This document shows positions 10,999-44,938 of a stretch of 64,000 nt of DNA, in pieces. Source of the stretch: Microbacterium sp. p3-SID336 (GTDB taxonomy: Bacteria > Actinomycetota > Actinomycetes > Actinomycetales > Microbacteriaceae). Location: contig NZ_JALXPE010000003.1 in assembly GCF_025143365.1 (NCBI RefSeq), forward strand, positions 30,826 to 94,825. Reading direction: 5' to 3'. Within the stretch, counting starts at the first letter, position 1. Every line of letters begins with the position of its first letter. Position numbers and translations under genes: made by a program. The notes beneath the pieces are model-generated. The model had not been told where the DNA came from. It searched no databases and saw only the letters and a list, made by a program, of their open reading frames with translations.

Positions 10999-11131
10999 CG
11001 GATGGTACGGCACGAGTCCGCGGGCCGGAGCCGGCGGACGACCGTGCCCGCATCGGGTGGCCCATTGCCGGGGTGCGCGCGGAGATGCGCGGGGGCCTTC
11101 TTCAGGCGGATGGTACGGCACGAGTCCGCGG
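10999..11131. repeat. 25-bp direct repeats upstream of cebR
   Basis: A 25-bp sequence beginning CGGATGGTACGGCACGAG occurs at 10999-11023 and again, identically, at 11107-11131, 108 bp apart. The second copy ends 19 bp before the cebR start and so covers the region expected for its -35. The unit carries short CGGA/TCCG arms but is not a LacI-type palindrome. Function unknown. Confidence 0.8.
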
Positions 11132-11149
11132 ACCGGTGAGAATAGGGCG

Positions 11150-12163: not shown

Positions 12164-12351
12164 GCATCGTCGCGCTGCGCCCCCGGTCCGTGCAGATCCT
12201 GAGGACGGCGGTCGGGCGGAGGGTTGCACGGCGGTGCGGACTGGCCGGCGGCTTCGATCGAGCGCGCGCGGATGCGGCCCTGGCGCCCCCTCCTGGTCAG
12301 GGACGCACCCGCGCGGCCGTGGTGAACGTGGTCCACGCAGAACGCAATAAC

Positions 12352-30959: not shown

Positions 30960-31046
30960 GTTCACAACTCAGGAGTGATGCGTGAGACGCGGGCGTTCTG
31001 ACGGCGCGTCGCGTCGGGTCGGCCCCGATTCTCCTGAGTTGTGTAC
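30960..31046. repeat. 87-bp palindromic intergenic element, copy B
   Basis: The ends are GTTCACAACTCAGGAG (30960-30975) and CTCCTGAGTTGTGTAC (31031-31046), a 16-bp inverted repeat with one mismatch. The same termini bound the 86-bp element at 5935-6020. It lies between purD (promoter side) and the 3' end of the NUDIX gene. The interior is not conserved apart from a short GAA-CGGGG stretch next to one end. Confidence 0.8.
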
Positions 31047-31054
31047 GCCGGGGC

Positions 31055-31729
31055 TCAGAGCTCGATCGGGCGCTCGTCCGTCTCGTCCCACGGCACCGTC
31101 CACCCGGCGGCGTCGAACAGGGCGTCCAGCACCATGGCCGTGAAGCCCCACACGATCGTGCCGTCGACGTCGAACGCCGGGCCGCGGAACGTGCGCCCCA
31201 GGCGCGACAGCGTCGAGGTGAACCGGATGTCGGGGTCGAGGAGCTGTGCGACGGGGACGCGGAACACCTCCACGGTCTCGGCGTGATCGACGGCGACCAC
31301 CCGCGACGGCGACTGCCACCACGCGAGCACGGGCGTGACCAGATGGTTGCTCGCGGCGAGGGGGATCACGGGAAGCGTGGCCAGCACCTCCACGCCGGTG
31401 GGGTCGAGTCCTGTCTCCTCCTGCGCCTCGCGGAGCGCGGTGGCCACGGCATCCGCATCGCCCTGGTCCACGCGGCCGCCCGGGAACGACACCTGCCCGG
31501 GGTGGGAGGAGAGCGTCGGGGCGCGGCGCTGGAGCAGCACGTCGAGGTCCCGCGCGACGGCCGCGTCCGGCGTGGTGGCGGGAATGCGGTCGAGCACGCC
31601 GAACAGGATGAGCACGGCGGCGTCGTGGGCGCTCTGCGGGTCGGCGAGCGGCGGGATCGGCACGCCCCAGGAGTGGTCGGCCACAGCGGCGAGCAGCTCG
31701 GCGCGGGCGCCCTGGGGATGCATGCTCAT
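31055..31729 (-). CDS. NUDIX hydrolase, probable CoA diphosphatase
   Basis: 224-residue pyrophosphohydrolase. The motif LSSHPGQVSFPGGRVDQGD followed by REAQEETGL (about residues 78-107) joins the CoA-diphosphatase family signature (HxGQVxFPGG) to the NUDIX box. One box position that is usually Glu is Asp (QGDAD). The enzyme would split CoA into phosphopantetheine and adenosine 3',5'-bisphosphate; broader nucleotide clearance is possible. The start at 31729 is supported by TAAGCT 7 nt upstream (leaderless); a second ATG at 31723 is possible. It is divergent from the sterol-carrier-like gene. Confidence 0.9.
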   Translation of the reverse strand: MSMHPQGARAELLAAVADHSWGVPIPPLADPQSAHDAAVLILFGVLDRIPATTPDAAVARDLDVLLQRRAPTLSSHPGQVSFPGGRVDQGDADAVATALREAQEETGLDPTGVEVLATLPVIPLAASNHLVTPVLAWWQSPSRVVAVDHAETVEVFRVPVAQLLDPDIRFTSTLSRLGRTFRGPAFDVDGTIVWGFTAMVLDALFDAAGWTVPWDETDERPIEL

Positions 31730-31736
31730 GCGTTCG

Positions 31737-31777
31737 AGCTTAGGCCGCTGACGTGCGCGGGGCCCCGGTTCTAGGGT
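31737..31777. promoter_or_regulatory. Back-to-back -10 boxes of two divergent leaderless genes
   Basis: On the minus strand TAAGCT (31742-31737) precedes the NUDIX ATG by 7 nt. On the plus strand TAGGGT (31772-31777) precedes the ATG at 31784 by 6 nt. The whole intergenic gap is only 54 bp, so the two promoters overlap in their upstream regions. Confidence 0.5.
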
Positions 31778-31783
31778 GGAGGC

Positions 31784-32152
31784 ATGGCGAGGAAGATCGA
31801 CATCATCGACGGTCGGGCGGCGCTCGACGCCGTGCGGGCCGCCGAGGCCGCGGGCGCGAAGCCGCAGCGCACGGAGCTCGCCACCGCCGTGCGGTACCTG
31901 CTGCAGCTGCTCGACGAGAAGGCGCCGGGCAACAGCGTCGAGGTGCGGGTGCCGCCGTTCGGCGCGGTGCAGGTGATCCAGGGGCCCCGGCACACCCGGG
32001 GCACTCCGCCCAACGTGGTGGAGATGGACGCGGCGACCTGGATCGCGGTGGCCACGGGCGCCGAGGCCTGGGCGGACGCGGAGTCCGCGGGGCGCATCCA
32101 CGCCTCGGGCACCAGGGCCGACCTCACCGCGGTGCTGCCGCTGCGCCCCTGA
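31784..32152 (+). CDS. Sterol-carrier-like (SCP_3) protein
   Basis: 122-residue protein of the bacterial SCP family (sterol carrier family protein), common next to purine genes in Actinobacteria. Recognisable features are the N-terminal helix RAALDAVRAAEAAGAKPQRT, the strands VEVRVPPFGAVQVIQGPRHTRG and the closing VEMDAATWIAVATGAEAWAD, ending LTAVLPLRP. It may bind a hydrophobic ligand; no function is established. The start is leaderless or uses GGAGG, which overlaps the spacer. Confidence 0.82.
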   Translation: MARKIDIIDGRAALDAVRAAEAAGAKPQRTELATAVRYLLQLLDEKAPGNSVEVRVPPFGAVQVIQGPRHTRGTPPNVVEMDAATWIAVATGAEAWADAESAGRIHASGTRADLTAVLPLRP

Positions 32153-32263
32153 GCGCGCGCACGGACGCCCCTCGTCTTCCGGCTGCGGCCTCTGCGGGCC
32201 TGAGCGCGCCCGCAGACGCCCCTCGTCTTCCGGCTGCTGCCGCTGCGGGCCTGAGCGAGCCCG
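32138..32263. repeat. 51-bp tandem repeat, about 2.4 copies
   Basis: Segments starting CCTGAGCG at 32148, 32199 and 32250 repeat with a 51-bp period. Shared cores are GACGCCCCTCGTCTTCCGGC and GCTGCGGGCCTGAGCG. The first copy includes the stop codon of the sterol-carrier-like gene, so the array arose by duplication of its 3' end. The period is a multiple of three, but the array lies outside the reading frame's end. Confidence 0.75.
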
Positions 32264-32356
32264 CGGTAGGCCGCTCGGTCGCTGCGGCTGGGCCTCGCGC
32301 CGAGCAGGCACGCGGACGCGGTCCCCGGTTCTGCTGCTGCGCGCCTCGCGCACACG

Positions 32357-32392
32357 GAAGGCCGCCCGGTCGCTGCCGATCGGGCGGCCTTC
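32357..32392. terminator. Hairpin between converging genes
   Basis: GAAGGCCGCCCG and CGGGCGGCCTTC make a perfect 12-bp stem with a 12-nt loop, 16 bp beyond the stop of the BtpA-family gene (minus strand). It probably terminates transcription of that gene and perhaps of the sterol-carrier-like gene from the other side. Confidence 0.75.
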
Positions 32393-32408
32393 GACGTGAG
32401 AGCGGGCG

Positions 32409-33227
32409 TCAGGCGAGCTGCGAGCGGAACGCCTTCGCCGCGCCCATCAGCTCCTCGACCCTGGCGCGGTCGGCCCGGTTCTCGAACCGGCCGTCCTGCT
32501 TGAAGTAGGTGCCGACCACGGCGCCGTCGGCCACCGCGAGCTGATCGGCGACGTTCGACGCCCGCACTCCGGTGTTGACGAAAACGGGCACGTCCCCGGC
32601 GTTCTCCTTCACGATCGCGAGCGACTGCGTGTCGGTGGGCGCCCCGGCGGTGAGGCCGGACACGCACAGCGCGTCCGGCTGCGTGGCGAACACGGTGGAC
32701 CGTGCGATCGAGCCCAGGTCCCGCTCGGCGAGGTAGGCGGCCGACTCCGGGACGATGTTGAACAGCAGCTTCACGCCGGCTGCGCCGATGCGGTGCCGGT
32801 GCCGGGCGACCTCGCCCACGTTGGTGTTCCACAGGCCGAAGTCGCTGGCGTAGACGCCGGTGAAGATCTCGCGCACGAAGGCGGCGTCGGTCGCGGTGGC
32901 CAGGTCGATGGAGGCGCGGCCGTCCCACAGCACGTTCACGCCGTACGGGACGGCGAGGTCGGACTGCAGCTCGCCGATGATGCGAGCCATCGCGATCGCC
33001 GTGATCGGCTCGGTCTTCGTGAGATAGGGGAGGCTGAACTCGTTGGAGATGAGCACGGCGTCCACCCCGCCGCTCTGCAGCGCGTCCAGCTCGCTCTTGG
33101 CGCGGTCCACGATCGCCGCGACGCCGGCGGCGGTGTCGTAGCCGGGGTCGCCGGGGAGCGGGGCCAGGTGCAGCATCGCCACGATCGGCTTCTGCGTGCC
33201 GAACACCTCCGGGAGCCAGTTGGGCAT
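32409..33227 (-). CDS. BtpA/SgcQ-family TIM-barrel protein
   Basis: 272-residue cytoplasmic protein of the BtpA family (BtpA of cyanobacteria, SgcQ of E. coli), predicted to be a phosphate-binding TIM barrel. Motifs include VAMLHLAPLPGDPGY (residues 16-30), GGVDAVLISNEFSLPY, PYGVNVLWDG, ASDFGLWNTNVGE and the C-terminal phosphate-site-like VFVNTGVRASNV and DGAVVGTYFKQDG. No enzymatic activity is known to me for the family, though SgcQ lies in a sugar operon. It is divergent from the DeoR gene with shared operator-like sequences between them, and so probably belongs to the same regulon as the downstream ABC importer. Confidence 0.88.
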   Translation of the reverse strand: MPNWLPEVFGTQKPIVAMLHLAPLPGDPGYDTAAGVAAIVDRAKSELDALQSGGVDAVLISNEFSLPYLTKTEPITAIAMARIIGELQSDLAVPYGVNVLWDGRASIDLATATDAAFVREIFTGVYASDFGLWNTNVGEVARHRHRIGAAGVKLLFNIVPESAAYLAERDLGSIARSTVFATQPDALCVSGLTAGAPTDTQSLAIVKENAGDVPVFVNTGVRASNVADQLAVADGAVVGTYFKQDGRFENRADRARVEELMGAAKAFRSQLA

Positions 33228-33263
33228 GTCTTCCTCGTTTCTTCGGAATGGATCACAGTGAGT

Positions 33264-33308
33264 GTGAAAGATTCACGAAGAGCAAAGCATAAGTAACTCA
33301 TTCACACA
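33264..33308. promoter_or_regulatory. Probable DeoR operators between divergent genes
   Basis: GTGAAAGATTCAC (33264-33276) is an inverted repeat of GTGAA, and a third copy of the half-site appears as TTCACAC near 33301. Repeated TGTGAA half-sites are usual for DeoR-family repressors. The region is AT-richer than its surroundings and lies between the BtpA-family gene and the DeoR gene. A TAGGGT -10 for the latter is near 33320. Confidence 0.55.
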
Positions 33309-33350
33309 AGGTTGTCGCCTAGGGTGGAGCTGCCACACGAGGAGGTAGGG

Positions 33351-34124
33351 ATGGAAGCCCACGAGCGCCGCGCGTTGATCGAGCAACGGGTGCTCTCCGA
33401 CGGCGAGGCCGAGTTCAAGGCCCTCGCGCTGGAGTTCGACGTCTCGGAGATGACGATCCGCCGCGACCTGGAGCTGCTGGAGGAGCGCGGGAGCGTGCGC
33501 CGCGTGACCGGCGGTGTGATCGCCGCGCACGGCACCGCCGTCGAGCCGGGGTTCAACTCGCGCGCCCTGATGGGGGCGCGCGAGAAGATCAACATCGCCG
33601 CCGCGGCCGTCGCGCACCTCAACCACGGCGAGACCGTGGTGCTCGACAGCGGCAGCACGGCGCTCGCCGTGGCCCGCGCGATCGTCGGCAAGGGTCTCGG
33701 ACTGACCGTGGTCACGCCGAGCATCCTGGTCGCGCTGGAGCTGCACGACGAGCCGAACACCACGATCCTCGTGACCGGAGGGCGGGTCCGGCCCGGCGAG
33801 CTCAGCCTGGTCGGCGCCGAGTCGATCGAGGCCTTCCGGCGCTACAACTGCGACGTGTACGTGATGGGCGTCTCCGGCGTCGACGGCAAGCGCGGGCTCT
33901 CCGACTACAGCAACGAGGAGGGCGCCGTGAAGCGCGCGGCGATCGAGGCCTGCGACCGGGTGATCGTCGTCGCCGACGCCTCGAAGCTCGGCCGCGTCCA
34001 TCTCACGAACGTGGCGGGGCCCGGCGAGGTCGACCTGCTGGTCACGGACGGCGCGGTGGACCATCCGGCCCTCGCGGGGCTGCGGGCCGCCGGCGTGCAG
34101 ATCGAGGCCGTTCCCGCGCTCTGA
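33351..34124 (+). CDS. DeoR-family transcriptional regulator
   Basis: 257-residue repressor. The DeoR helix-turn-helix is at residues 5-58 (ERRALIEQRVLSDGEAEFKA, FDVSEMTIRRDLELLEERG, VRRVTGGV). The C-terminal sensor domain resembles ribose-5-phosphate isomerase, with DSGSTALAVARAI and the GVDGKRGLSDYSNEEGAVKR ligand loop, which in this family binds a sugar phosphate made by the pathway. GGAGG precedes the ATG at 33351. It sits between the BtpA-family gene and the transporter operon and is the obvious local regulator. Confidence 0.93.
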   Translation: MEAHERRALIEQRVLSDGEAEFKALALEFDVSEMTIRRDLELLEERGSVRRVTGGVIAAHGTAVEPGFNSRALMGAREKINIAAAAVAHLNHGETVVLDSGSTALAVARAIVGKGLGLTVVTPSILVALELHDEPNTTILVTGGRVRPGELSLVGAESIEAFRRYNCDVYVMGVSGVDGKRGLSDYSNEEGAVKRAAIEACDRVIVVADASKLGRVHLTNVAGPGEVDLLVTDGAVDHPALAGLRAAGVQIEAVPAL

Positions 34125-34152
34125 CGGGGACGGGGTGCGGGCGGGATGCGGC

Positions 34153-34216
34153 GCGCAACGGTTGCGCAACGGCTGTGAGAATTCGCATTGACAACGGGCG
34201 TCGTCACGTTTTACTG
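34153..34216 (+). promoter_or_regulatory. Promoter and palindrome upstream of the sugar ABC operon
   Basis: TTGACA (34188-34193) with TTTACT (34210-34215), 16 bp apart, is a plausible promoter; TTACTG at 17 bp is an alternative. Just upstream, GCGCAACGGTTGCGC (34153-34167) is a 15-bp inverted repeat, and GTTGCGCAAC (34161-34170) is a second overlapping palindrome. The position upstream of -35 fits an activator or an upstream repressor site. Confidence 0.6.
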
Positions 34217-34297
34217 TTCCACAGCGTTGAGATTTCTTCCCATTCCTCCCTGGGGGTGGTGGAAACTAACACTGACTCAGACACGAAGGAGTGGAAC

Positions 34298-35335
34298 ATG
34301 CGTAAGACGAAGGTCCTTGCCGGCATCGGATTCGGTGCCGTGGCCCTGCTCGCCCTCGCCGGCTGCGGACAGGTCGGCGGCGGAACGGGCGGCGGAGAGT
34401 CGGGCGGCGGAAGCTCCGAGGGCGGGGCGATGGTCACCGTCGTCAAGATCTCGGGCGTCGGCTGGTTCGACCGCATGGAGGTCGGCGTGAACGAGTTCGC
34501 CGAGGAGACGGGGATCGACGCGCGGCAGGAGGGCGCGGACGACGCCAGCCCGGAGAAGCAGATCCAGATCATCCAGGACCTGATCGCGCAGTCGCCCGCC
34601 GCGATCACGGTCGTTCCCAACTCGCCGGAGGCGCTGGAATCGGTCCTGAAGCAGGCCAGGGACCAGGGCATCGTCGTCGTGGCCCACGAAGCCGCCGGCA
34701 TCAAGAACGCCGACATCGACATCGAGGCGTTCGACAACCGGGCCTACGGGGCCCAGATCATGGACAACCTCGCGGAGTGCATGGGCGAGACCGGCCAGTA
34801 CGTGTCGTTCGTCGGCGGCCTCACCGCCAAGACCCACATGGACTGGGTCGGCGGCGCGTACGACCAGCAGCAGGCCGAGTACCCCGAGCTGACCCGGGTC
34901 GAGGAGCCCGTGGAGAGCAAGGAGGACGAGAACGTCGCCTACCAGCGTGCCAAGGAGCTGCTGGCGAAGTACCCCGACCTCGCGGGCTTCCAGGGCTCGG
35001 CGGGCACCGACGTCGCCGGCATCGCCCGCGCCGTGCAGGAGGCCGGTCTGGAGGACCAGGTCTGCGTGATGGGGACGAGCATCCCCTCGGTCGCCAAGAA
35101 GTACATCGTCGACGGCTCGATCGACAAGATCTTCTTCTGGGACCCGGCGATGGCGGGCAAGGCGCAGCTCAAGATCGCGCAGCTGCTCGTCGACGGCGAG
35201 GAGATCACCGACGGCACCGACCTCGGCATCGAGGGCTACACCTCCCTCACCAAGCTCGAGGGCTTCGACAACGTGTTCGTGGGCGACGCGGCCGTCATCG
35301 TCGACAAGGACAACGTCGACGAGTACGACTTCTGA
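34298..35335 (+). CDS. Sugar ABC transporter binding lipoprotein (RhaS/LsrB-like)
   Basis: 345-residue periplasmic-binding-protein-like (Peripla_BP_4) lipoprotein. Lipobox LALAGC with the Cys near residue 23, then a Gly/Ser-rich linker. The domain begins MVTVVKISGVGWFDRM and ends FVGDAAVIVDKDNVDEYDF, an end shared with the rhamnose/autoinducer-2 group. Typical family elements are EKQIQIIQDLIAQSPAAITV and GTSIPSVAKKYIVDGSIDKI. The ligand is unknown: a pentose, deoxyhexose, tetritol or related compound is possible. AAGGAG precedes the ATG. First gene of a seven-gene run ending at 43308. Confidence 0.92.
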   Translation: MRKTKVLAGIGFGAVALLALAGCGQVGGGTGGGESGGGSSEGGAMVTVVKISGVGWFDRMEVGVNEFAEETGIDARQEGADDASPEKQIQIIQDLIAQSPAAITVVPNSPEALESVLKQARDQGIVVVAHEAAGIKNADIDIEAFDNRAYGAQIMDNLAECMGETGQYVSFVGGLTAKTHMDWVGGAYDQQQAEYPELTRVEEPVESKEDENVAYQRAKELLAKYPDLAGFQGSAGTDVAGIARAVQEAGLEDQVCVMGTSIPSVAKKYIVDGSIDKIFFWDPAMAGKAQLKIAQLLVDGEEITDGTDLGIEGYTSLTKLEGFDNVFVGDAAVIVDKDNVDEYDF

Positions 35336-35399
35336 CCCGACGTCACCCCACGACTCAGGGTGGGGCCGCCCGAGGCCGGCCCCACCCCGGAGGAACAAC

Positions 35400-36908
35400 A
35401 TGAACGCAGAACAGGCGCACCCGACGCCCGTGCTCGAGGTGCGGGGGGTGCGGAAGGTGTTCGGCGGCGTCGTCGCGCTCGACGACGTCGCCCTCACCCT
35501 CCTCCCGGGGCGGGTGCACTGCCTCGCCGGAGAGAACGGGTGCGGCAAGTCCACCCTCATCAAGATCATCAGCGGGGTCGAGAAGCCCGAGGCGGGGGAG
35601 ATCCTGCTCGACGGCGAGCCGATGACGCACCTCTCGCCCACCCAGGCCCTCCGCGCCGGCATCCAGGTCATCTACCAGGACTTCTCGCTCTTCCCCAACC
35701 TCACGGTCGCGGAGAACATCGTGCTGCCCGCCGCCATCGCCGCGCGGCGGAAGCTGTACAGCGCGAAGAACCGGCGTCCGGAGGCGCAGCGCATCGTCGA
35801 GGAGCTGGGGCTCACCCTCGACCTCGACGCCGACGTGGAACGGCTCTCCGTCGCCGACCGTCAGCTGACCGCCATCTGCCGCGCCCTGGTGCAGGACGCC
35901 AGGGTCATCTTCATGGACGAGCCCACGACCGCGCTCACGCACTCCGAGGTGGAGCGCCTGTTCGCCCTGGTGCGGCGGCTGCAGCAGCGCGGCGTCGCGC
36001 TCGTCTTCGTCAGCCACAAGCTCGACGAGGTGCTGGAGGTCTCGCAGGACATCACGGTCCTCCGCTCGGGACGGCTCGTCGCCAGCGGGCCCGCCGCCGA
36101 GTTCGACGTCGCCTCGCTCACCCAGGCGATGACGGGGCGCGCGGTCGACGACTCGCGCGTCGTGGTCCCCGTGGACGAGGAGGCGGCGCCGCTGCTGCGG
36201 GTCGAGCACCTCGACCTCCCCGGCGCCTTCACCGACGTCTCCTTCGATCTGCAGCCGGGGGAGATCCTCGGGCTCACCGGTCTGCTCGGCTCGGGCCGCG
36301 GCGAGATCGCCGACGCCCTGTTCGGGCTGCTGACGCCGCGCGCGGGCACCGTCACGCTCGATGGCCGCCGCGTGCGCCCTGGCAGCATCCGCGCCTCGAT
36401 CGACGCCGGCTTCGGCTACGTGCCGGAAGACCGGCTCACGCAGGGGCTCTTCCTGGACAAGTCCATCTCGGACAACATCATCGCCGGCTCCCTCGACCAG
36501 CACGCGGTCGGCCGTGTGCTGCTGAGCCGGCGCCGCACCGCCGAGACCATCTCGCGCCTGTTCTCCCGGCTGCGCATCAAGGCGCCCACCGTGGAGGCCC
36601 CGGTGCGCTCCCTCTCCGGCGGCAACGCGCAGCGCGTGGTGCTGGCGAAGTGGCTCGCGACGAAACCCCGCGTGCTGATCCTCAACGGGCCCACCGTCGG
36701 CGTCGACGTCGGCTCGAAGGAGGAGATCCTGCAGATCCTGCGGGACGCGGCGCGCGACGGCATGGGCGTGCTCATGATCTCGGACGACGTGGCGGAGCTG
36801 GTCTCCGTCTGCCACCGCGTGCTCGTGGTGCGCCGCGGCGCGATCGTCTCCCGACTGTCCGGCGACGAGATCGCCGCCCCCCGTATCCAGGAGGTGATGG
36901 CCGCGTGA
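35400..36908 (+). CDS. Sugar ABC transporter ATPase, two nucleotide-binding domains
   Basis: 502-residue RbsA/MglA-type duplicated ATPase. The first domain has Walker A GENGCGKST (about residue 45), signature LSVADRQ and an intact Walker B IFMDEPTTALT. The second has signature LSGGNAQR but a degenerate Walker A region (GLLGSGRGE, usual for this class) and a Walker B reading LILNGPTVGVD near residue 428, with Asn and Gly where Asp and the catalytic Glu normally stand. Only the first site is thus likely to hydrolyse ATP. It is in operon with the binding protein (64-nt gap) and overlaps the permease gene by 4 bp. Confidence 0.94.
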   Translation: MNAEQAHPTPVLEVRGVRKVFGGVVALDDVALTLLPGRVHCLAGENGCGKSTLIKIISGVEKPEAGEILLDGEPMTHLSPTQALRAGIQVIYQDFSLFPNLTVAENIVLPAAIAARRKLYSAKNRRPEAQRIVEELGLTLDLDADVERLSVADRQLTAICRALVQDARVIFMDEPTTALTHSEVERLFALVRRLQQRGVALVFVSHKLDEVLEVSQDITVLRSGRLVASGPAAEFDVASLTQAMTGRAVDDSRVVVPVDEEAAPLLRVEHLDLPGAFTDVSFDLQPGEILGLTGLLGSGRGEIADALFGLLTPRAGTVTLDGRRVRPGSIRASIDAGFGYVPEDRLTQGLFLDKSISDNIIAGSLDQHAVGRVLLSRRRTAETISRLFSRLRIKAPTVEAPVRSLSGGNAQRVVLAKWLATKPRVLILNGPTVGVDVGSKEEILQILRDAARDGMGVLMISDDVAELVSVCHRVLVVRRGAIVSRLSGDEIAAPRIQEVMAA

Positions 36909-37933
36909 GCGCCACCGACACCCGCATCCGCCTCCCCCGCCTGGGGCGGCACTCGAACGAGCTCGTGCTCGCCGGGATCATCCTCCTCCTCGTGGTCGTG
37001 ATGTGCGCCGTGAACCCCGCGTTCTTCACGGTGCACACGCTGTTCTCGATCCTGCGGTCGGCCCTGGTGCCGATGGTCTTCGCGCTCGCGGTGCTGCTGG
37101 TGATCATCTCCGGCGGCATCGACGTCTCGTTCGCGGCGATCGGCATCTTCGCCGCCTACACGACCGTCACCCTCGCCCAGGGCGGGAGCTTCGATCCCGG
37201 GCTGCTCGGCATCCTCGTCATCGCCATCGTGATCGGCGGGGCGCTCGGGTTCGTGAACGGCATCGTGATCGCGCGCTTCCGGCTGCCCACCCTGATCGTG
37301 ACCCTGGCCACCCAGGGCATCTTCAAGGGCGTGCTGCTGGCCTACATCGGCTCCCGCTACATCGCCGAGCTGCCGGGCAGCGTGTCGTGGCTCTCCACCG
37401 CGAACCTCATCTCGATCGAGTCGACCCGCGCGTACCTGCCGATGCTGATCGTGCCCGTCGTGCTGCTCGTGATCGGCGCCTCGTTCCTGCTGCGCCGCAC
37501 CATGTTCGGCCGCGGCGTCTACGCGATGGGCGGCGACCTGGAGGGTGCACGGCGCGCGGGCTTCCCGGTCGTGCGCCTGCAGATCCTGCTCTACATGCTG
37601 GTCGGCGCGATCGCGGCCATCGGCGGACTGATCCACGTGGTCCTCGGACGCAGCGCCAACCCGCAGGATCTCGTGGGCACCGAGCTCGACGTGATCGCCG
37701 CGGTCGTGCTCGGCGGCGCCTCCATCTTCGGCGGACGCGGCACCGTGACCGGCACCGTGCTCGGCGTGCTGCTGGTGCAGATCATCAACAACAGTCTCAT
37801 CCTGATGGGCGTGCCGACGGCCTGGCAGCGCGCCGCCGTCGGGATCCTGCTGGTGATCGGCGTGGGCATCCAGGCCGTGATGGCCCGCCGCGCCGCCCGG
37901 CGCACGTTCGTCCTCGACACGGTGAAGGAGTGA
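36905..37933 (+). CDS. Sugar ABC transporter permease 1 (RbsC type)
   Basis: 342-residue integral membrane protein of the RbsC/AraH family with 8-10 membrane segments. The conserved cytoplasmic signature is near residues 205-225 (YAMGGDLEGARRAGFPVVRL), and GGASIFGGRGTVTGTVLG is the usual C-terminal Gly-rich element. The GTG start overlaps the ATPase stop. It forms a heterodimeric channel with the next protein, as LsrC-LsrD or YtfT-YjfF do. Confidence 0.93.
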   Translation: MSATDTRIRLPRLGRHSNELVLAGIILLLVVVMCAVNPAFFTVHTLFSILRSALVPMVFALAVLLVIISGGIDVSFAAIGIFAAYTTVTLAQGGSFDPGLLGILVIAIVIGGALGFVNGIVIARFRLPTLIVTLATQGIFKGVLLAYIGSRYIAELPGSVSWLSTANLISIESTRAYLPMLIVPVVLLVIGASFLLRRTMFGRGVYAMGGDLEGARRAGFPVVRLQILLYMLVGAIAAIGGLIHVVLGRSANPQDLVGTELDVIAAVVLGGASIFGGRGTVTGTVLGVLLVQIINNSLILMGVPTAWQRAAVGILLVIGVGIQAVMARRAARRTFVLDTVKE

Positions 37934-37935
37934 CC

Positions 37936-39033
37936 ATGCCATCGACGACACCCCGAGGCCGGTTCGGCGAGATGAACGACCAGGTCGACCGGTCCGTGCG
38001 CTCGCTGCTCGACCGCATCCACGTGAACCGCGGCGTGGGCCGCATGCTCGTGCTGTTCGCGCTCGCGTTCGCGCTGTTCGCGATCCTGAACCCGCGGGTG
38101 TTCCTGAACCCGGTGAACCTGCAGAACATGATGGTCGCCTCCCCGGAGGTCGGCATCCTGGCCATCGCGATGACCCTCGCGATGCTCACCGGCGGGATCG
38201 ACCTGTCGCTGGTGGCCATCGCGAACCTGTCCGCGATCACGGTGAGCACGATGTTCACCGCGATCGCGAGCAGCGACCCCGCGATGGCGGAGTCCCTGGG
38301 CGGCCTCATCGCGCTGGTCGGCGTGGCCGTCGGCGTGCTCGCCGGCGCGATCAACGGCTTCCTGATCGCCACGGTCGGCATCACGCCGATCCTCGCGACG
38401 CTCGCCACCATGCAGATCTTCAACGGCATCGCGATCGTGTGGACCGGCGGCAAGACGCTGTACGGCGCGCCGGCGGTGCTGTCGTCCGTCGGGCAGTCCA
38501 CGGTCGCCGGCATCCCGATCCTCTTCCTGGAGTTCCTGGTGGTCGCGGTGCTGATCGGCGTGCTGATCACGCGCACCCCGTTCGGCCGGCGGACGCAGCT
38601 GCAGGGCGCGAACCCCACCGCGGCGATGTACTCCGGCATCCGCAGCACCGGCGTCCTCTACGGCACCTACGTCACGACGGGCCTCCTCGGCGGCCTCGCC
38701 GGGCTCGTGTTCCTGTCGCGCAACCCGACGGCCAGCGCCGATTACGGCACGTCCTACGTGCTGCTCGTGATCGTGATCGCGGTGCTCGGCGGGACGAACC
38801 CGACCGGCGGCTTCGCGACCGTGACCGGTGTGGTGCTCGCGACGCTCGTGCTGCAGGTGGTGCAGTCGGGCTTCACGGCCATCCGCCTCTCCGCGTACGA
38901 GTACGCCATCGCGCAGGGCGTGATCCTGATCGCGGTGATGGTGTTCGACCAGGTGCGGGTGCGACGACGGCCACGGCGGGCGCCGAGCAGCCAGACCGAG
39001 ACGATCGCGCTCGCCGAGATCCCCCGCGCCTGA
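37936..39033 (+). CDS. Sugar ABC transporter permease 2 (RbsC type)
   Basis: 365-residue second permease of the same family, divergent from its partner. It has an N-terminal cytoplasmic tail of about 35 residues, then GRMLVLFALAFALFAILNPR, MLTGGIDLSLVAIANLSAI (family hallmark GGIDLS), QGANPTAAMYSGIRSTGVLY and VLGGTNPTGGFATVTG. GGAG precedes the ATG, 2 nt after the first permease stop. Two non-identical permeases plus one double ATPase is the layout of rhamnose, tetritol and AI-2 type importers. Confidence 0.93.
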   Translation: MPSTTPRGRFGEMNDQVDRSVRSLLDRIHVNRGVGRMLVLFALAFALFAILNPRVFLNPVNLQNMMVASPEVGILAIAMTLAMLTGGIDLSLVAIANLSAITVSTMFTAIASSDPAMAESLGGLIALVGVAVGVLAGAINGFLIATVGITPILATLATMQIFNGIAIVWTGGKTLYGAPAVLSSVGQSTVAGIPILFLEFLVVAVLIGVLITRTPFGRRTQLQGANPTAAMYSGIRSTGVLYGTYVTTGLLGGLAGLVFLSRNPTASADYGTSYVLLVIVIAVLGGTNPTGGFATVTGVVLATLVLQVVQSGFTAIRLSAYEYAIAQGVILIAVMVFDQVRVRRRPRRAPSSQTETIALAEIPRA

Positions 39034-39057
39034 CCGGCGCCCGCGAAACGCACACGG

Positions 39058-40539
39058 ATGGACCTGTTCCTCGGCATCGACGTCGGCACCTACGAGACCA
39101 AGGGCGTGCTGGTGGACGCGGCGGGCGTCGTGCACGCGGAGGCGCGTGCCCGGCACGGGATCAGCACCCCGGCGCCCGGATGGGTGGAGCAGGATGCCGA
39201 CGCCGTGTGGTGGGCGGATGTCGTGGCCGTCGCTGCGGAGCTGCGGGCCGCGGTGCCCGACGCCGTGATCGCCGCGGTCGCGTGCAGCGCCATCGGTCCG
39301 TGCGTGCTGCCGGTCGACGCCGAGCTGCGACCGCTGCGGCCCGCGATCCTGTACGGCGTCGACACCAGGGCGACGGAGGAGATCGGTCTGCTCGAGGAGC
39401 GCCTGGGTGCCGACGAGATCGTCCGTCGGACCGGGAACGTTCTCACCAGCCAGTCCGCCGGCCCGAAGGCGCTGTGGGTCGAGCGGCACGAGCCGGAGGT
39501 CGCCGCGCAGACGCGGTGGTACCTCACCAGCCAGAGCTACCTGGTGGCCCGGCTCACCGGTCGCGTGGCGATCGACCATGCCACGGCCGGGTACTTCCAC
39601 CCCTGCTACGACCTCGCACGCCAGGAGTGGGACCTGGACGGCATCGCCGACCTGATCCCGGCGGAGAAGCTGCCGCCGCTCGCGTGGTCCTCCGAGGTGG
39701 CGGGCGCCGTCACACCGGCGGCGGCGGCGGCGACCGGCATCCCCGCCGGCACCCCGGTCATGGTCGGCACAACGGACGCGGTGGCGGAGGCGGTCGGCTC
39801 GTCCGTGGTCGCCGTGGACGACCTCATGCTCATGTACGGGTCGAGCGGCTACTTCATCCGCGTGACAGCGCAGCCGCACGTCGACCCTCGGCTGTGGGCG
39901 GCGCCGTTCGCGCTGCCGGGGCGCTTCGTGCTCGCCGCGGGGACCTCGACCGCCGGCACCGCGACCCGGTGGATCGCCGACCTGCTCGGGCTCGACCACG
40001 GCGACGGCGACACCGCGATGTTCGGGCGACTGATGGACCTCGTCCGCGCGGCACCCCCGGGGTCGAACGGCGTGCTGCACCTGCCGCACTTCAGCGGGGA
40101 GCGCACCCCCGTGCACGACCCGGACGCGCGCGCCGCGTTCACCGGGCTCAGCCTCGGCTCGGGGCGGGCCGAGCTCGCCAGGGCCGTGGTGGAGGGGGTC
40201 GGCGCGTCCGTGGCGCAGGCCGTGTCCGCGCTGCTCGAGGCCGGCGGAGGCGAGCCGCGCGCGGTCGCCGTCGGCGGCGGGACCCGCAACGAGGTGCTGC
40301 TGCAGACCGTGAGCGACCTGACCGGGCTGACGCAGCGCACGGCGGCCACCCTGGGTGCGGCCTACGGCGACGCCATGCTCGCCGCGATCGGCACGGGCGC
40401 GGTGACGGAGGAGCAGGCGGTGGGCTGGGTGGCGTTCTCGGACGAGGTGCGGCCGGGCACGGACGGACGGTTCCGCGACGCGGACCGGCATGTGCAGACG
40501 TACCGCGCGCTGCGCGCGGTGAGGGAGGGAGAGCGATGA
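39058..40539 (+). CDS. FGGY-family carbohydrate kinase
   Basis: 493-residue sugar/polyol kinase. The N-terminal phosphate-binding loop IDVGTYETKGVLVD (residues 6-19), the catalytic Asp in VGTTDAVAEAVG (about residue 240), HFSGERTPVHDPDARAAFTG and the adenosine loop AVGGGTRNEVLLQTVSD are standard FGGY features. The N-terminal substrate region does not match xylulokinase, gluconokinase, glycerol kinase or LsrK closely enough for me to name a substrate. It is encoded 24 nt after the second permease and overlaps the peptidase gene by 4 bp, so it probably phosphorylates the imported compound. Confidence 0.92.
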   Translation: MDLFLGIDVGTYETKGVLVDAAGVVHAEARARHGISTPAPGWVEQDADAVWWADVVAVAAELRAAVPDAVIAAVACSAIGPCVLPVDAELRPLRPAILYGVDTRATEEIGLLEERLGADEIVRRTGNVLTSQSAGPKALWVERHEPEVAAQTRWYLTSQSYLVARLTGRVAIDHATAGYFHPCYDLARQEWDLDGIADLIPAEKLPPLAWSSEVAGAVTPAAAAATGIPAGTPVMVGTTDAVAEAVGSSVVAVDDLMLMYGSSGYFIRVTAQPHVDPRLWAAPFALPGRFVLAAGTSTAGTATRWIADLLGLDHGDGDTAMFGRLMDLVRAAPPGSNGVLHLPHFSGERTPVHDPDARAAFTGLSLGSGRAELARAVVEGVGASVAQAVSALLEAGGGEPRAVAVGGGTRNEVLLQTVSDLTGLTQRTAATLGAAYGDAMLAAIGTGAVTEEQAVGWVAFSDEVRPGTDGRFRDADRHVQTYRALRAVREGER

Positions 40540-41609
40540 GCAGGTGGCGGGAGCTGGCCGAGCATCTGGCGACGGTGAACGAGGTGGGGCAGGGGACGAA
40601 GGTCTCGGTCTTCGCCACGACCTCGTCGGTGCTCGACGCGGTGGACGCGTTCGTCGAGGAGGTGTACCGGCGCGGCGGCGTCCCCCAGGTGCTGCTCGCC
40701 GAGGAGCGGTACGACCGGCACGCCCTGGCGCACGCGAGCGAGGAGGTGCTGCGGGCGGCCGCCCCGCTGGAGCTCGCGTCGATGGAGTGGGCGGACGTGC
40801 ACGTGTCGTTCCGCGGCATGGAGCCGCCCGCGGCCGAGATCGACGGCGCCCGGCTGAGCCTCCAGCGCGAGGGCAAGGGTGTGGTGTCGACCGCCCGCTG
40901 GCAGGGTACCCGCTGGACGCTCGTGCGGATCCCGACGCCGGAGTGGGCGGCCCTGGTCGGTGTGCCCCAGACGCAGCTCGAACAGGAGTTCTTCGCGGGG
41001 ACCCTCGCGGACTGGCCGGCGCATCGCGCGCATCTCGATCGGCTGTGTGCGGAGCTGGACACGGTGTCGACCGTCCGCATCCTCGACGAGGACACGGACC
41101 TGCGGCTGAACTGCGCTGGACGCACGTGGGTGCCGTTCGCGGGCGAGGCGAACCTGCCGGACGGCGAGGTCGCGACCGCTCCCGTCGAGGACGGCGTGGA
41201 CGGGCACATCACCTTCCCCGGCACCTTCTGGTTCGGCGGGGCGACGATCACCGACCTCCGGCTCGAGTTCGAGGCGGGACGGGTTGAGCGGGTGTCCGCC
41301 ACGCGGGGCCTCGACCTCGTGGAGCGCATCCTGGAGGCGGACGGCGCGCGCCGGGTGGGCGAGCTGGGCATCGGCACCAACCCGCACGTGCAGACCATGA
41401 CTGGCGACCTGCTGATCGACGAGAAGATCCTCGGCACGGTGCACATCGCCCTCGGCCGCTCGTACCCGCAGTGCGGAGGGAAGAACGAGTCGGCCATCCA
41501 CTGGGACATCGTGAAGGACCTCCGCCCGTCCGGGCGGCTCGAGGCGGACGCGCGCGTGCTGATCGACCGGACGACGTACGACCCGCTGCTCGCAGGACAG
41601 GAGAGCTGA
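40536..41609 (+). CDS. M29-family metallo-aminopeptidase-like protein
   Basis: 357-residue member of the AmpS/PepS/aminopeptidase T (M29) family, slightly short for the family (370-410). The expected metal ligands are all recognisable: Glu211 in LPDGEV, Glu276 in GELGIGTN, His303 in TVHIALG, and His322 and Asp324 in AIHWDIVKDL. So it should bind a dinuclear metal centre and be active. What is odd is the place: a peptidase sandwiched, with overlapping start and stop, between two sugar kinases. It may act on an amide- or amino-acid-linked sugar, or have been recruited for another hydrolysis. Membership is clear; substrate is unknown. Confidence 0.9.
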   Translation: MSRWRELAEHLATVNEVGQGTKVSVFATTSSVLDAVDAFVEEVYRRGGVPQVLLAEERYDRHALAHASEEVLRAAAPLELASMEWADVHVSFRGMEPPAAEIDGARLSLQREGKGVVSTARWQGTRWTLVRIPTPEWAALVGVPQTQLEQEFFAGTLADWPAHRAHLDRLCAELDTVSTVRILDEDTDLRLNCAGRTWVPFAGEANLPDGEVATAPVEDGVDGHITFPGTFWFGGATITDLRLEFEAGRVERVSATRGLDLVERILEADGARRVGELGIGTNPHVQTMTGDLLIDEKILGTVHIALGRSYPQCGGKNESAIHWDIVKDLRPSGRLEADARVLIDRTTYDPLLAGQES

Positions 41610-41610
41610 C

Positions 41611-43308
41611 ATGCGCAAGATCATCAACGACCCCGAGACCTTCGTCGACGAGACCCTGGAAGGGATCCTGCTCGCGCATCCCGACGAGCTGCGTGCGGTC
41701 ACCGCCGACCGCCGGGCGCTCGCGCGGACGGATGCGCCGGCCCCCGGACGCGTGGGCATCGTCACCGGCGGCGGCTCGGGCCACCTGCCCTTCTTCCTCG
41801 GCTACGTGGGGCGGGGGCTGTGCTCGGCCGTCGCGGTGGGCAACGTGTTCTCCTCCCCGAGTGCCGCGCAGATCCATGCCGCATCGGTCGCGGTGCACTC
41901 CGACGCCGGTCTGCTCTACCTGTACGGCAACTACGGCGGCGACGTGCTGAACTTCGATCTCGCCGCGGAGCGCTGTCGCGCGGAGGGCATCGAGGTGCGC
42001 ACGGTGCTCGGTGCGGACGACCTGCAGTCGGCGCCGCGCGACCGTGCCGATACGCGGCGCGGCGTCGCAGGACTCGTGCTGGTGTACAAGGTCGCGGGTG
42101 CCATGGCCGACCGCGGAGGCTCGCTCGACGAGGTCGCACGGGTGGCGCAGAAGGCGGCCGATGCGACCAGGACCATGGGCGTCGGGCTGTCGCCGACCGT
42201 GCTCCCCGCGGCCGGCGAGGAGACGTTCACGCTCGACGAGGGCGAGATGGAGATCGGCGTCGGCATCCACGGCGAACGCGGCAGCCACCGCGGCCCTCTG
42301 GAGTCGGCGGATGCCATCACGGATCGGTTCCTGGCGGAGCTCGGCGCGGAGCTCGATCTCACCGCGGGCCGCCGGGTCGCTGTGCTGGTGAACGGACTCG
42401 GGGCGACGCCGCTGGAAGAGCTGTACGTGATCTACCGGCGCGTGCACCGCACTCTCGCGGAGGCCGGCGTGGAGATCGGGTATCGCCTGATCGGGGAGTA
42501 CGTCACCAGCCTGGAGATGGCGGGGGCGTCCCTGTCGATCATGCAGCTCGACGACGAGCTGGAGGAGCTGCTGCGCGACCCCGCGGGCTCCCCCTTCTTC
42601 CGCCAGGGCAGTGCACCGGTCGGGGAGACGGCCGTCGCGGTCGCCGTCGCCGACGAGGGCGCGGCAGCCGTCGAGGTCACCCGCGCCGCGTCGCCCAGCG
42701 CGCTGCGGGCGCGGCTGCTGCGCGTGCTGCCGCGGATGGAGGCCCACCGGGAGGAGCTGCGCACGCTCGACGCGGCGCTCGGCGACGGCGACCTCGGGGT
42801 GACGGTCGCGGCCGGCAGCGTCGCGATCGCCCGTGCGCTGGAGCAGCTTCCGGACGACGCCGATGCTCGCAGCCTCCTGCGTGCCGCGGGGGACGCGTTC
42901 GCGGCCGCGAACCCGTCCACGTTCGCCGCCCTCGTCGGGAGCGGGCTCCTGGCAGCGGCCGAGCGGACGCCCGAGGGCACGCACCTGGATCGCACGGGGC
43001 TGGCCGCCGCGGTGCGCGCCGTCGCGGAGCGGATCGCCGCCCAGGGCGGCGCGGCACGGGGCGACAAGACCGTGATCGACGTCCTGCATCCCGTCGCGGA
43101 GGCGCTGGATGCCGGCGCGGACGCGGCCGGAGTCGCGGTCGCCGCGCGGGAGGCCGTCGCCGAGAGCACCGCGTGGCAGTCGCGCCGCGGCAGGGCGGGA
43201 TGGCAGCAGGAGCGGTCGGTGGGCCACGCCGACCCCGGGTCGGTCGCCGTCACCCGGTTCGTGGAGGAGCTGGCGCTCGAGGAGTCCGCGAGCGGGACGG
43301 CGTCCTAG
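41611..43308 (+). CDS. DhaK-DhaL type ketose kinase (dihydroxyacetone kinase family)
   Basis: 565-residue ATP-dependent kinase with an N-terminal DhaK domain (1-325) and C-terminal DhaL domain (about 360-560). His220 in VGIHGERG is the residue that binds the ketone as a hemiaminal, and Asp387, Asp392 and Asp394 (LDAALGDGDLG) would hold Mg-ATP. The substrate loop reads GSGHLP rather than the GSGHEP of classical dihydroxyacetone kinases (Leu59 for Glu), which points to another small ketose such as erythrulose; this is inference. It follows the M29 gene by 1 nt. Its TAG stop overlaps the convergent phosphatase stop in a shared CTAG. Confidence 0.9.
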   Translation: MRKIINDPETFVDETLEGILLAHPDELRAVTADRRALARTDAPAPGRVGIVTGGGSGHLPFFLGYVGRGLCSAVAVGNVFSSPSAAQIHAASVAVHSDAGLLYLYGNYGGDVLNFDLAAERCRAEGIEVRTVLGADDLQSAPRDRADTRRGVAGLVLVYKVAGAMADRGGSLDEVARVAQKAADATRTMGVGLSPTVLPAAGEETFTLDEGEMEIGVGIHGERGSHRGPLESADAITDRFLAELGAELDLTAGRRVAVLVNGLGATPLEELYVIYRRVHRTLAEAGVEIGYRLIGEYVTSLEMAGASLSIMQLDDELEELLRDPAGSPFFRQGSAPVGETAVAVAVADEGAAAVEVTRAASPSALRARLLRVLPRMEAHREELRTLDAALGDGDLGVTVAAGSVAIARALEQLPDDADARSLLRAAGDAFAAANPSTFAALVGSGLLAAAERTPEGTHLDRTGLAAAVRAVAERIAAQGGAARGDKTVIDVLHPVAEALDAGADAAGVAVAAREAVAESTAWQSRRGRAGWQQERSVGHADPGSVAVTRFVEELALEESASGTAS

Positions 43309-44084
43309 GGGAGGGGGAGGTGCGGCGGGAAGGCGGCGATGCCTCCCCGCCGGGTGGGCGGGCGGCGCACGATCAGCCCGGCCTCCTCGGCGATCAGCGC
43401 GCCCGCCGCCCAGTCGAACTCGTACAGGTCGGTCTCGATGAAGGCGTCGACGCTGCCCTCCGCCGCGAGGCAGAGGCCCAGGGCCGCCGAGCCCACGCTG
43501 CGGAGATCGGTGAAGGAGGACATCAGCCCGGGGAGCTCGGCGAGCTGCCGCGCGCGCTGTGCCGGGTCGTAGGAGAAGCCGACGGCCAGCAGCACCGGCG
43601 TCGCCCCCTCGACGGGCCCGTGCAGCTGTCGCCGCACGCCCGCCGTCTCACGGAAGGCCCCGTGCCCTGCCGCGGCCGCGTACACGTGTCCCAGTTCGGG
43701 GGCGTGCACGACTCCGGCGAGCCAGGCCCCGGAGCGGACGTCCTGCACGGCGACCGAGGAGCCGTAGTGCGGCAGCCCGCGGACCACGTTCGAGGTGCCG
43801 TCGAGCGGGTCGATCGACCACCGCAGCTCGGCGGCCGAGCCGGCCGTCGTCGCGTACTCCTCGCCGGACACCTCGTCGTCGGGGCGGTGCGCGGCGAGAA
43901 CGGCACGGATCGCGCGCTCCGCCCGCAGGTCGGCCTCGGTGACGACATCGCCCGCGGCGCCCTTGGTGCGAACGCCCAGCGCATCGGCGGCGGTGTCCCT
44001 GGCCGTGCGGGCCTCGGCGAGCTCATGGGCCCCCGCGGCGGCGGCGGCGAGGGCGATATCGAGCAGTTCGGGCGCAGACGGCAT
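43305..44084 (-). CDS. Inositol monophosphatase family phosphatase
   Basis: 259-residue Mg-dependent, Li-sensitive-type phosphatase of the IMPase/CysQ superfamily. Motifs are DVVTEADLRAERAIR and GEEY (first metal Glu), WSIDPLDGTSNVVRGLPHY (the DPxDGT metal site, about residue 90) and ETDLYEFDWAAGALIAEEAG (WDxAAG variant, with FDWAAG here). It could act on inositol phosphate, histidinol phosphate or PAP. GGAGGT precedes the ATG at 44084. It is convergent with the carbohydrate operon and therefore probably not part of it. Confidence 0.9.
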   Translation of the reverse strand: MPSAPELLDIALAAAAAGAHELAEARTARDTAADALGVRTKGAAGDVVTEADLRAERAIRAVLAAHRPDDEVSGEEYATTAGSAAELRWSIDPLDGTSNVVRGLPHYGSSVAVQDVRSGAWLAGVVHAPELGHVYAAAAGHGAFRETAGVRRQLHGPVEGATPVLLAVGFSYDPAQRARQLAELPGLMSSFTDLRSVGSAALGLCLAAEGSVDAFIETDLYEFDWAAGALIAEEAGLIVRRPPTRRGGIAAFPPHLPLP

Positions 44085-44140
44085 GGCAGATCGGACCTCC
44101 GGTGGGCGATCCTCCAGCGTAGCGCCGCGACGCCGCCGGC

Positions 44141-44938
44141 CTAGCGGCGCGCGACCACCAGCGGGACCCCGGTGAGCGGGTGCGGGAGCACGTCGACGGG
44201 CTGCCCGTACACCTGCTCGATCCGCGCGGCGGTGAGGACCGTGGTCGGGGTGCCGGTCGCCGCCACCCGTCCGCCCGCGAGCAGGGTCACGCGGTCGGCA
44301 TGGGCGAGGGCGGCGTTGAGGTCGTGCAGCACGACGGCGACCGCGGCGCCGGCGTCGGCCTGCGCGCGGATCAGCCGCATGACGTCTTCGTGGTGCTTGA
44401 GATCGAGCGCAGCGGTCGGCTCGTCCAGCAGGAGGATCCCGGTGCGCTGTGCGAGGACGCGGGCCAGCGCGACCCTGGCGCGTTCGCCGCCCGAGAGCGA
44501 GGGAACGACACGGTCGCGGAGTGCGGCGACCTCGGTGTGCGCCAGAGCCGCAGCGACCGCGTCGTCGTCGTCCGCTGAGGCCGTCGTCCGGGCCCAGGGG
44601 GCGCGGCCCATGCGCACGACCTGTTCCACCGTGAACGGGAAGGTGACGGTGTTCTCCTGCAGCAGCACCCCGCGCCGCTGCGCGAGCACGCGCGGCCGCA
44701 GCGATCCGATCGGCATCCCGTCCAGCAGCACCTGGCCGGACCGTGGTGCCACATCGCCGGCGAGCACGCCGAACAGGGTCGACTTGCCCGCGCCGTTCGG
44801 CCCGATGAGCGCGTGGACCTCGCCCCGGTGCACATCGATGGAGGCGTCGTCGAGGATCGATCGACCACGTCCACGGGCCTCCCCGCGGGTGTCGCCGACG
44901 CGGACCGTGATCCCGTCCGCGCGCAGCCGGGGGGTCAT
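44141..44938 (-). CDS. hmuV: Haem ABC transporter ATPase
   Basis: 265-residue ATPase of the FepC/HmuV group. Walker A GPNGAGKST (about residue 45), Q-loop GVLLQENTVTFPFTVEQVV, signature LSGGERARVALARVLAQ, Walker B ILLLDEPTAALD and H-loop VVLHDLNAALAHADR are complete. The PFTVEQVVRMGR segment is typical of haem importers. It overlaps the permease gene by 4 bp and ends the hmuTUV operon, which is preceded by an iron box. Confidence 0.93.
   Translation of the reverse strand: MTPRLRADGITVRVGDTRGEARGRGRSILDDASIDVHRGEVHALIGPNGAGKSTLFGVLAGDVAPRSGQVLLDGMPIGSLRPRVLAQRRGVLLQENTVTFPFTVEQVVRMGRAPWARTTASADDDDAVAAALAHTEVAALRDRVVPSLSGGERARVALARVLAQRTGILLLDEPTAALDLKHHEDVMRLIRAQADAGAAVAVVLHDLNAALAHADRVTLLAGGRVAATGTPTTVLTAARIEQVYGQPVDVLPHPLTGVPLVVARR

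Follow-up and report, generated by a model that had tools for sequence, protein, structure and literature searches.

The carbohydrate locus at 32409-44084 of the analysed stretch (the window, 64,000 nucleotides of Microbacterium sp. p3-SID336) raises the question of why a protein with the fold of an M29 metallo-aminopeptidase is encoded among genes for sugar uptake, between a kinase of the FGGY family and a DhaK-DhaL fusion kinase and near a BtpA family protein, and which substrate such a gene set could serve. The parts are members of known families and the format of a sugar-catabolic cassette is already known. The pathway had been left unassigned in the initial annotation of this DNA, and no paper listed by searches of the open-access literature was seen to assign the gene set; in the available text of a review of the FGGY family (PMC3245297) a word search returned neither BtpA nor peptidase. 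The comparison of related loci showed that M29 travels with BtpA and the FGGY kinase through several phyla and is replaced in some cassettes by an M42 peptidase. It also connected the locus with the sgc operon of Escherichia coli, and both this connection and the M29/M42 replacement go beyond the initial annotation. The preferred reading, to which a probability of about 0.55 is given, is a catabolic cassette for a furanose, ketopentose-like sugar or its conjugate, which would be processed by the importer, the FGGY kinase, the M29 or M42 enzyme and BtpA.

Distribution of the M29 cassette and its M42 version

One scan of species genomes with an alignment of 29 M29 proteins as query gave 240 matching stretches, 222 of them encoding a relative; the 80 best of these form the set used here (L008-L087, the 80 M29 loci). 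The closest named relatives of the window protein are from Microbacterium (88-90% identity), and the loci L008 and L009 (Microbacterium maritypicum and M. oxydans) have all parts of the cassette. An FGGY kinase lies no more than 11 kb from the M29 gene in 75/80 loci, BtpA in 70/80 and both together in 66/80, the last covering seven named phyla: Actinomycetota (38/41), Chloroflexota (11/16), Spirochaetota (6/8), Atribacterota (5/6), Thermodesulfobacteriota (3/3), Deinococcota (1/1) and Verrucomicrobiota (1/1), plus one record without phylum. The pair was absent from the loci of Thermomicrobiota (0/2) and Bacteroidota (0/1), and several of the 14 loci without it are short contigs. Since the same set recurs across other genera and phyla it is beyond chance, and the neighbourhood is not specific to one strain.

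At the same distance 46 of the 80 loci have a CUT2 binding protein and 28, by a loose count, a match to DhaK or DhaL; importer, DhaK/DhaL, BtpA and FGGY kinase were all present in 26, one of which (L052) has a weak and distant DhaK match. Therefore, of the unit proposed in the initial annotation, the association of M29 with BtpA and FGGY holds, whereas DhaK-DhaL is an optional module. The cassette is an accessory trait, because BtpA exceeded the Pfam cut-off in 10 of the 297 genomes drawn as a sample of the order. M29 relatives were also matched in 37 plasmid records, and the gene set was seen in none of the seven neighbourhoods viewed.

The window M29 protein belongs to its family by both the PF02073 profile and the fold. 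E211, E276, H303, H322 and D324, which we take to be the metal-ligand positions (E, E, H, H, D) of M29, are present in each of the 44 M29 proteins aligned from the fetched loci, in three of three longer aminopeptidases and in all seven other short M29 proteins. Compared with PepS, AmpS and AmpT the protein is shorter (357 versus about 400-418 amino acids), has K297 in place of Asn and carries additional Arg and Trp residues. All 44 cassette-type proteins have R93, R131, R196 and W85, and the three longer aminopeptidases lack them; in the seven other short proteins, which come from different contexts, each of the three arginines occurs in 3/7 and the tryptophan in 0/7. The basic residues were considered as proof of a phosphorylated substrate and are only suggestive, because K297 is found in all seven other short proteins and R308 in two of the three longer ones.

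In six cassettes (L147, L172, and L194 with L202, L203, L204 and L205) an M42 peptidase occupies the place of M29, and this interchange predicts a common substrate of the two enzymes. The M42 cassette is present in one of the eight genomes of the order of G1001, namely G1001 itself. In the order of G958 the M42 protein was found in 5/121 genomes and the cassette in four; the fifth genome (L206) has BtpA and M42 with an FGGY match of only 26% and was left out of the count. Retention of the M42 version along with an importer, DhaK/DhaL and an aldolase in four genomes of only about 1.2-1.4 Mb (L194, L202-L205) suggests that the sugar matters to these streamlined actinobacteria.

The kinases were compared in a tree of 117 rows thinned to 98, built by a quick method with branch support from the approximate likelihood ratio test (SH-aLRT) only. 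Where a locus had several FGGY genes, the best match to the query kinases was taken for M29/M42 contexts and the gene nearest to BtpA otherwise. The M29-type kinases formed a clade of 69 rows with a support of 99, inside which the M42-context kinases of L147, L172 and L194 lay at three separate points; the M29-context kinase of L069, on a long branch, fell outside. The FGGY kinases of BtpA loci with a short-chain dehydrogenase/reductase (SDR) were found in a different clade. Both domains of the window kinase exceed their cut-offs (150.1 and 95.7 bits), and the protein lies below every NCBIfam cut-off shown, including that of xylulokinase XylB (TIGR01312, 278 bits, equivalog 380.25).

The sgc operon as a likely counterpart

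In E. coli K-12 the genes sgcX (annotated with a Zn-dependent exopeptidase domain), sgcB, sgcC, sgcQ, sgcA, sgcE and sgcR lie together. SgcQ is 63-69% identical to the BtpA of eight loci (L111, L112, L117, L131-L133, L153 and L188), and SgcX aligns along its length with a solved M42 protein and retains what we take to be the meaningful motifs of that family. Like the window, the operon encodes a BtpA protein (SgcQ) and a protein with a metallopeptidase fold, alongside a regulator (SgcR) and the means to import and phosphorylate a sugar. They differ in that sgc has a phosphotransferase system (PTS) instead of the ATP-binding cassette (ABC) importer and FGGY kinase, M42 instead of M29, and the RPE-like epimerase SgcE, whereas DhaK-DhaL is not in the operon; no epimerase family was matched among the ten window proteins scanned. 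The sgc operon is thus likely the PTS counterpart of the ABC cassette of the window. A short spirochaete contig (L188) carries an sgc-like PTS version with relatives of M42, SgcQ, SgcE and SgcC.

The available part of a 2026 atlas (PMC13343008) calls the substrate and functions of sgc unestablished and describes induction of the operon on nitrogen-containing slow-growth substrates. In the literature examined no assigned chemistry was found for BtpA/SgcQ or sgc, and tying them to a cassette whose binding protein and soluble kinase can be tested opens a direct route to the substrate.

The BtpA protein and its partners

The window BtpA is a member of its family by PF03437 (284.8 bits, cut-off 30) and TIGR00259 (297 versus 153.4); its 166.4 bits against the Photosystem I biogenesis protein BtpA (NF045918) do not reach the equivalog cut-off of 400. 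The AlphaFold model (mean predicted local distance difference test, pLDDT, 92.5) gave tied fold matches to PcrB, KDPGal aldolase, HisF and hexulose-phosphate synthase. On this model BtpA is predicted to be a phosphate-binding TIM barrel, and the tied matches do not single out a reaction. A role as the aldolase of the pathway is weakened by a LacD/DeoC-type aldolase encoded in the same gene run as BtpA in four M42 cassettes (L194, L203, L204 and L205) and by our own reading that no conserved lysine stands on a barrel strand.

At a threshold of E <= 1e-30 BtpA was found in 55/301 Chloroflexota, 9/296 Spirochaetota and 28/394 actinobacterial-class genomes. Of 95 places 79 were picked by hand and, with one from the order sample, made up 80 BtpA loci, some of which share genomes with the M29 set; tblastn with the window BtpA gave a match in 76 and none in four. 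Where BtpA reaches 38% identity to that of the window (41 loci), 38 loci (14/15 and 24/26) have an FGGY kinase no farther than 11 kb away; of the 35 with a less similar BtpA, a PfkB kinase was found in 21. It follows that BtpA of the window clade nearly always accompanies a sugar kinase, M29 or M42 marking a subset, and this company fits the predicted phosphate-binding fold.

Other surroundings of BtpA were also seen. In a Chloroflexota group with BtpA 28-33% identical to the window protein (L123, L126, L128, L160, L162, L163, L166-L168, L170, L173 and L176) a PfkB-family kinase adjoins it and replaces FGGY, and in L130, L181, L182, L183 and L197 the neighbours are SIS-domain proteins of the sugar isomerase/deglycase type. 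Three rhizobial plasmid loci (L151, L152, L153) have BtpA of 60-61% identity beside a CUT1 importer, a PIG-L deacetylase and a protein resembling isomerases, and none of FGGY, M29 and M42 was seen in their stretches. A tight operon in L120 (5190-10793) encodes PfkB, BtpA, PurD, M42 and a nucleoside-type binding protein. Phosphoribosylamine chemistry, considered on account of this operon, was dropped, because the PurD is the only strong match of its genome (second match 29.5 bits) and may be a housekeeping gene.

Binding protein and substrate

The window binding protein has a lipoprotein signal, and its best solved relatives are 5BRA and 9I1M. The latter is AauA with D-ribulose bound, and the contacts given in the available passages of its report (PMC12307932) are Lys37, Trp43, Glu118, His167, Glu196 and Ser223. 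The first five of these six have identical counterparts in the window (K50, W56, E131, H180 and E209). Among the 52 binding proteins of the fetched loci, with the window and a few repeats counted in, the first K, W and E are conserved in 52/52, H in 48, E or D at the next position in 49 and Ser in 2, and the predicted sugar-contact residues are the same in five of the six M42 cassettes. The pocket residues suggest a furanose ring like that of ribulose, differing near C5, and our best candidate for the substrate is a ketopentose-like furanose. The residues point to such a ribulose-like sugar and do not single out a tetritol or branched sugar, as would be expected for the C4 or branched sugar or polyol envisaged in the initial annotation. 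The D-ribulose importers Aau and Rbl share with the window the binding-protein family and the five contacts; unlike the window, they are described in these passages of PMC12307932 with no mention of BtpA, M29 or DhaK-DhaL. By profile the importer is RhaS/LsrB-like, in agreement with the rhamnose/AI-2 (autoinducer-2) type first proposed, with every score below the equivalog cut-offs.

Proposed pathway and its alternatives

From gene content, conservation, the M29/M42 interchange, the kinase partnership and the conserved binding residues we infer a substrate, an order of steps and each chemical step as follows. A ribulose-like sugar or sugar conjugate would be taken up by the CUT2 ABC importer and phosphorylated by the FGGY kinase, both tasks being performed by the PTS in sgc. 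M29 (M42 in the other cassettes and in sgc) together with BtpA/SgcQ would then turn the product into a ketose phosphate that enters central metabolism, and DhaK-DhaL, a tartronate-semialdehyde-reductase-like enzyme or a LacD/DeoC-type aldolase may serve as optional helpers in the cleavage or rescue of small products. If the PTS replaces importer and kinase, the M42 or M29 enzyme should act on the phosphorylated sugar. For this step we tentatively place first the hydrolytic cleavage of an amide-type linkage within a sugar conjugate, because M29 and M42 are both aminopeptidase families and other metal amidohydrolases occur in related loci (PIG-L, as annotated, creatininase and M24-like). Isomerisation of the sugar or its phosphate is the main rival, as loci of the SDR type carry a dehydrogenase instead, and appears less probable.

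Several points weigh against the proposed cassette. The 80 M29 loci were chosen through M29 sequence patterns, and the manner of choosing among several FGGY genes favours the grouping of M29/M42-context kinases. M29 or M42 accompanies BtpA in only 12 of the 41 loci at or above 38% identity, and BtpA 74-79% identical to that of the window occurs in CUT1-SDR-FGGY loci without either peptidase (L139-L143, L190), so BtpA can do without a peptidase-fold enzyme; the BtpA of the M42 cassettes is more divergent (38-45%). The sixth AauA contact, Ser223, is Gly in the window, and the idea of amide hydrolysis is weakened in that the binding pocket, judged from its residues, looks built for a monosaccharide. 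As far as the available part of PMC13343008 reports, sgc deletion mutants grow without defect on 190 carbon sources, so the comparison with sgc yields no phenotype.

It is tempting to speculate that the M29 and M42 folds independently became one enzyme of a sugar-phosphate pathway, catalysing isomerisation or another non-peptidase reaction with BtpA as partner isomerase or epimerase. Such a development is rather unlikely; if true, it would represent a new catabolic route common to E. coli sgc and several environmental phyla. In a classical isomerase-kinase-aldolase/epimerase pathway, which we regard as doubtful, M29/M42 would be a metal-dependent aldose-ketose isomerase and FGGY the ketose kinase, BtpA would epimerise or cleave the product, and DhaK-DhaL would rescue dihydroxyacetone or glyceraldehyde. 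The three enzymes would follow the usual pathway logic, and the ten scanned window proteins match no other isomerase family. Moreover, the polyol-type loci (Rhizobium, Thermus, Labrenzia, Shinella plasmids; L139-L143), which share BtpA, FGGY and DeoR with the window and differ by a polyol-type CUT1 importer and the absence of M29/M42, have in their place an SDR dehydrogenase, whose product would likewise be a ketose. However, their FGGY kinases belong to the different clade, two unrelated peptidase folds would both need to turn into isomerases, and we know of no isomerase precedent in M29 or M42.

It is improbable that M29 and M42 are ordinary peptidases acting on something unrelated, the sugar pathway consisting of importer, FGGY kinase and BtpA only. 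They do have the fold and the metal-ligand residues of aminopeptidases, the other 29 of the 41 BtpA loci have neither of them, and neither was detected in L117, which combines a CUT2 importer, a ribulokinase-like (AraB-like) kinase and BtpA; on the other hand M29 accompanies BtpA and FGGY across phyla, M42 substitutes for it in six cassettes, and the four residues invariant in the cassette proteins are absent from the three longer aminopeptidases. The M29/M42 interchange is also a caution that genes annotated as aminopeptidases in sugar operons may not digest peptides. Simple use of D-ribulose by Aau/Rbl-like uptake and a ribulokinase, with BtpA and M29 as mere accessories, fits the conserved AauA contacts and the L117 kinase (489.2 bits against a cut-off of 428 in the ribulokinase model PRK04123, though below TIGR01234), yet it is the least probable explanation, as BtpA, M29 and DhaK-DhaL are superfluous for D-ribulose 5-phosphate in the established pentose phosphate pathway, Ser223 is replaced, the window kinase falls below the NCBIfam cut-offs, and the Citrobacter rodentium Rbl locus described in the available part of PMC12307932 consists of an importer, a kinase and a KpsF-like isomerase.

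DhaK-DhaL and helper genes

The fusion kinase exceeds the subfamily cut-off of PRK14479 (dihydroxyacetone kinase family protein; 567.5 bits versus 492) and remains below the equivalogs TIGR02363 (356.1 versus 406.25) and TIGR02361 (354.4 versus 574.95), so its substrate may not be dihydroxyacetone. The DhaK motif is GSGHLPFF, compared with GSGHEPMH in the solved DhaK 4LRX, presumably the E. coli protein; GSGHLP was found in 31/31 motif matches among loci with DhaK/DhaL, weak-match loci such as L052 giving none. This enzyme may phosphorylate a ketose, as first suggested, although the difference of its motif from that of the solved DhaK makes plain dihydroxyacetone an uncertain substrate.

The tartronate-semialdehyde-reductase-like protein was found in 9/80 M29 loci, below all family cut-offs. 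A weaker aldolase match (37%) lies near the M29 cassette of L032, and an epimerase is a helper gene in a spirochaete locus. In L067 a RuBisCO-like gene (11107-12261; 208 bits to an MtnW-type model, below its cut-off) begins 44 bp past M29 in a run of FGGY, BtpA, DhaK, DhaL and M29. Besides the window gene, inositol-monophosphatase-family genes recur at up to 11 kb from M29 in 14/80 loci of several phyla, for example in L042, L044, L057, L060, L076 and L085, hinting at a dephosphorylation step.

Organization of the locus

The ten proteins of the locus (Table 1) all match by Pfam profiles the families named beforehand, which bears out the description of one catabolic locus with two kinases of different folds. 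The reported head-to-tail order of the seven plus-strand genes from 34298 to 43308, encoding the importer, the FGGY kinase, the M29 protein and the DhaK-DhaL fusion, was confirmed; they succeed one another at 64 bp, a 4-bp overlap, 2 bp, 24 bp, a 4-bp overlap and 1 bp, and the locus is headed by DeoR and the divergent BtpA gene with 123 bp between them.

Table 1. Coordinates of the features of the locus in the window
Feature	Position	Strand	Evidence
BtpA/SgcQ family protein, predicted phosphate-binding TIM barrel	32409..33227	-	PF03437, TIGR00259, AlphaFold, fold matches
BtpA-DeoR divergent intergenic region with GTGAA-N3-TTCAC inverted repeat	33228..33350	.	comparison with relatives
DeoR-type regulator	33351..34124	+	PF08220 + PF00455
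CUT2-type sugar-binding protein	34298..35335	+	PF13407
Sugar ABC ATPase, two ABC domains	35400..36908	+	PF00005, two stretches
Sugar ABC permease 1	36905..37933	+	PF02653
Sugar ABC permease 2	37936..39033	+	PF02653
FGGY carbohydrate kinase, M29/M42-associated clade	39058..40539	+	PF00370 + PF02782; tree
M29-family metallo-aminopeptidase-fold protein, metal-ligand residues intact	40536..41609	+	PF02073
DhaK-DhaL fusion kinase	41611..43308	+	PF02733 + PF02734
Inositol-monophosphatase-family gene, convergent; cassette membership uncertain	43305..44084	-	PF00459

Both arms of the inverted repeat between BtpA and DeoR are unbroken, by eye, in six of the eight relatives printed, and the repeat is a possible DeoR operator. 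The Rfam scan of 31000-46000 gave no match above the gathering scores, the leader at 34188-34297 upstream of the binding-protein gene included. In this leader TTGACA is followed by TTTTACTGTTCCACAG and ATTTCTTCCCATTCC. Its conservation is strong in L008-L011, it can still be recognised in Leucobacter, and it may be regarded as a putative promoter or operator.

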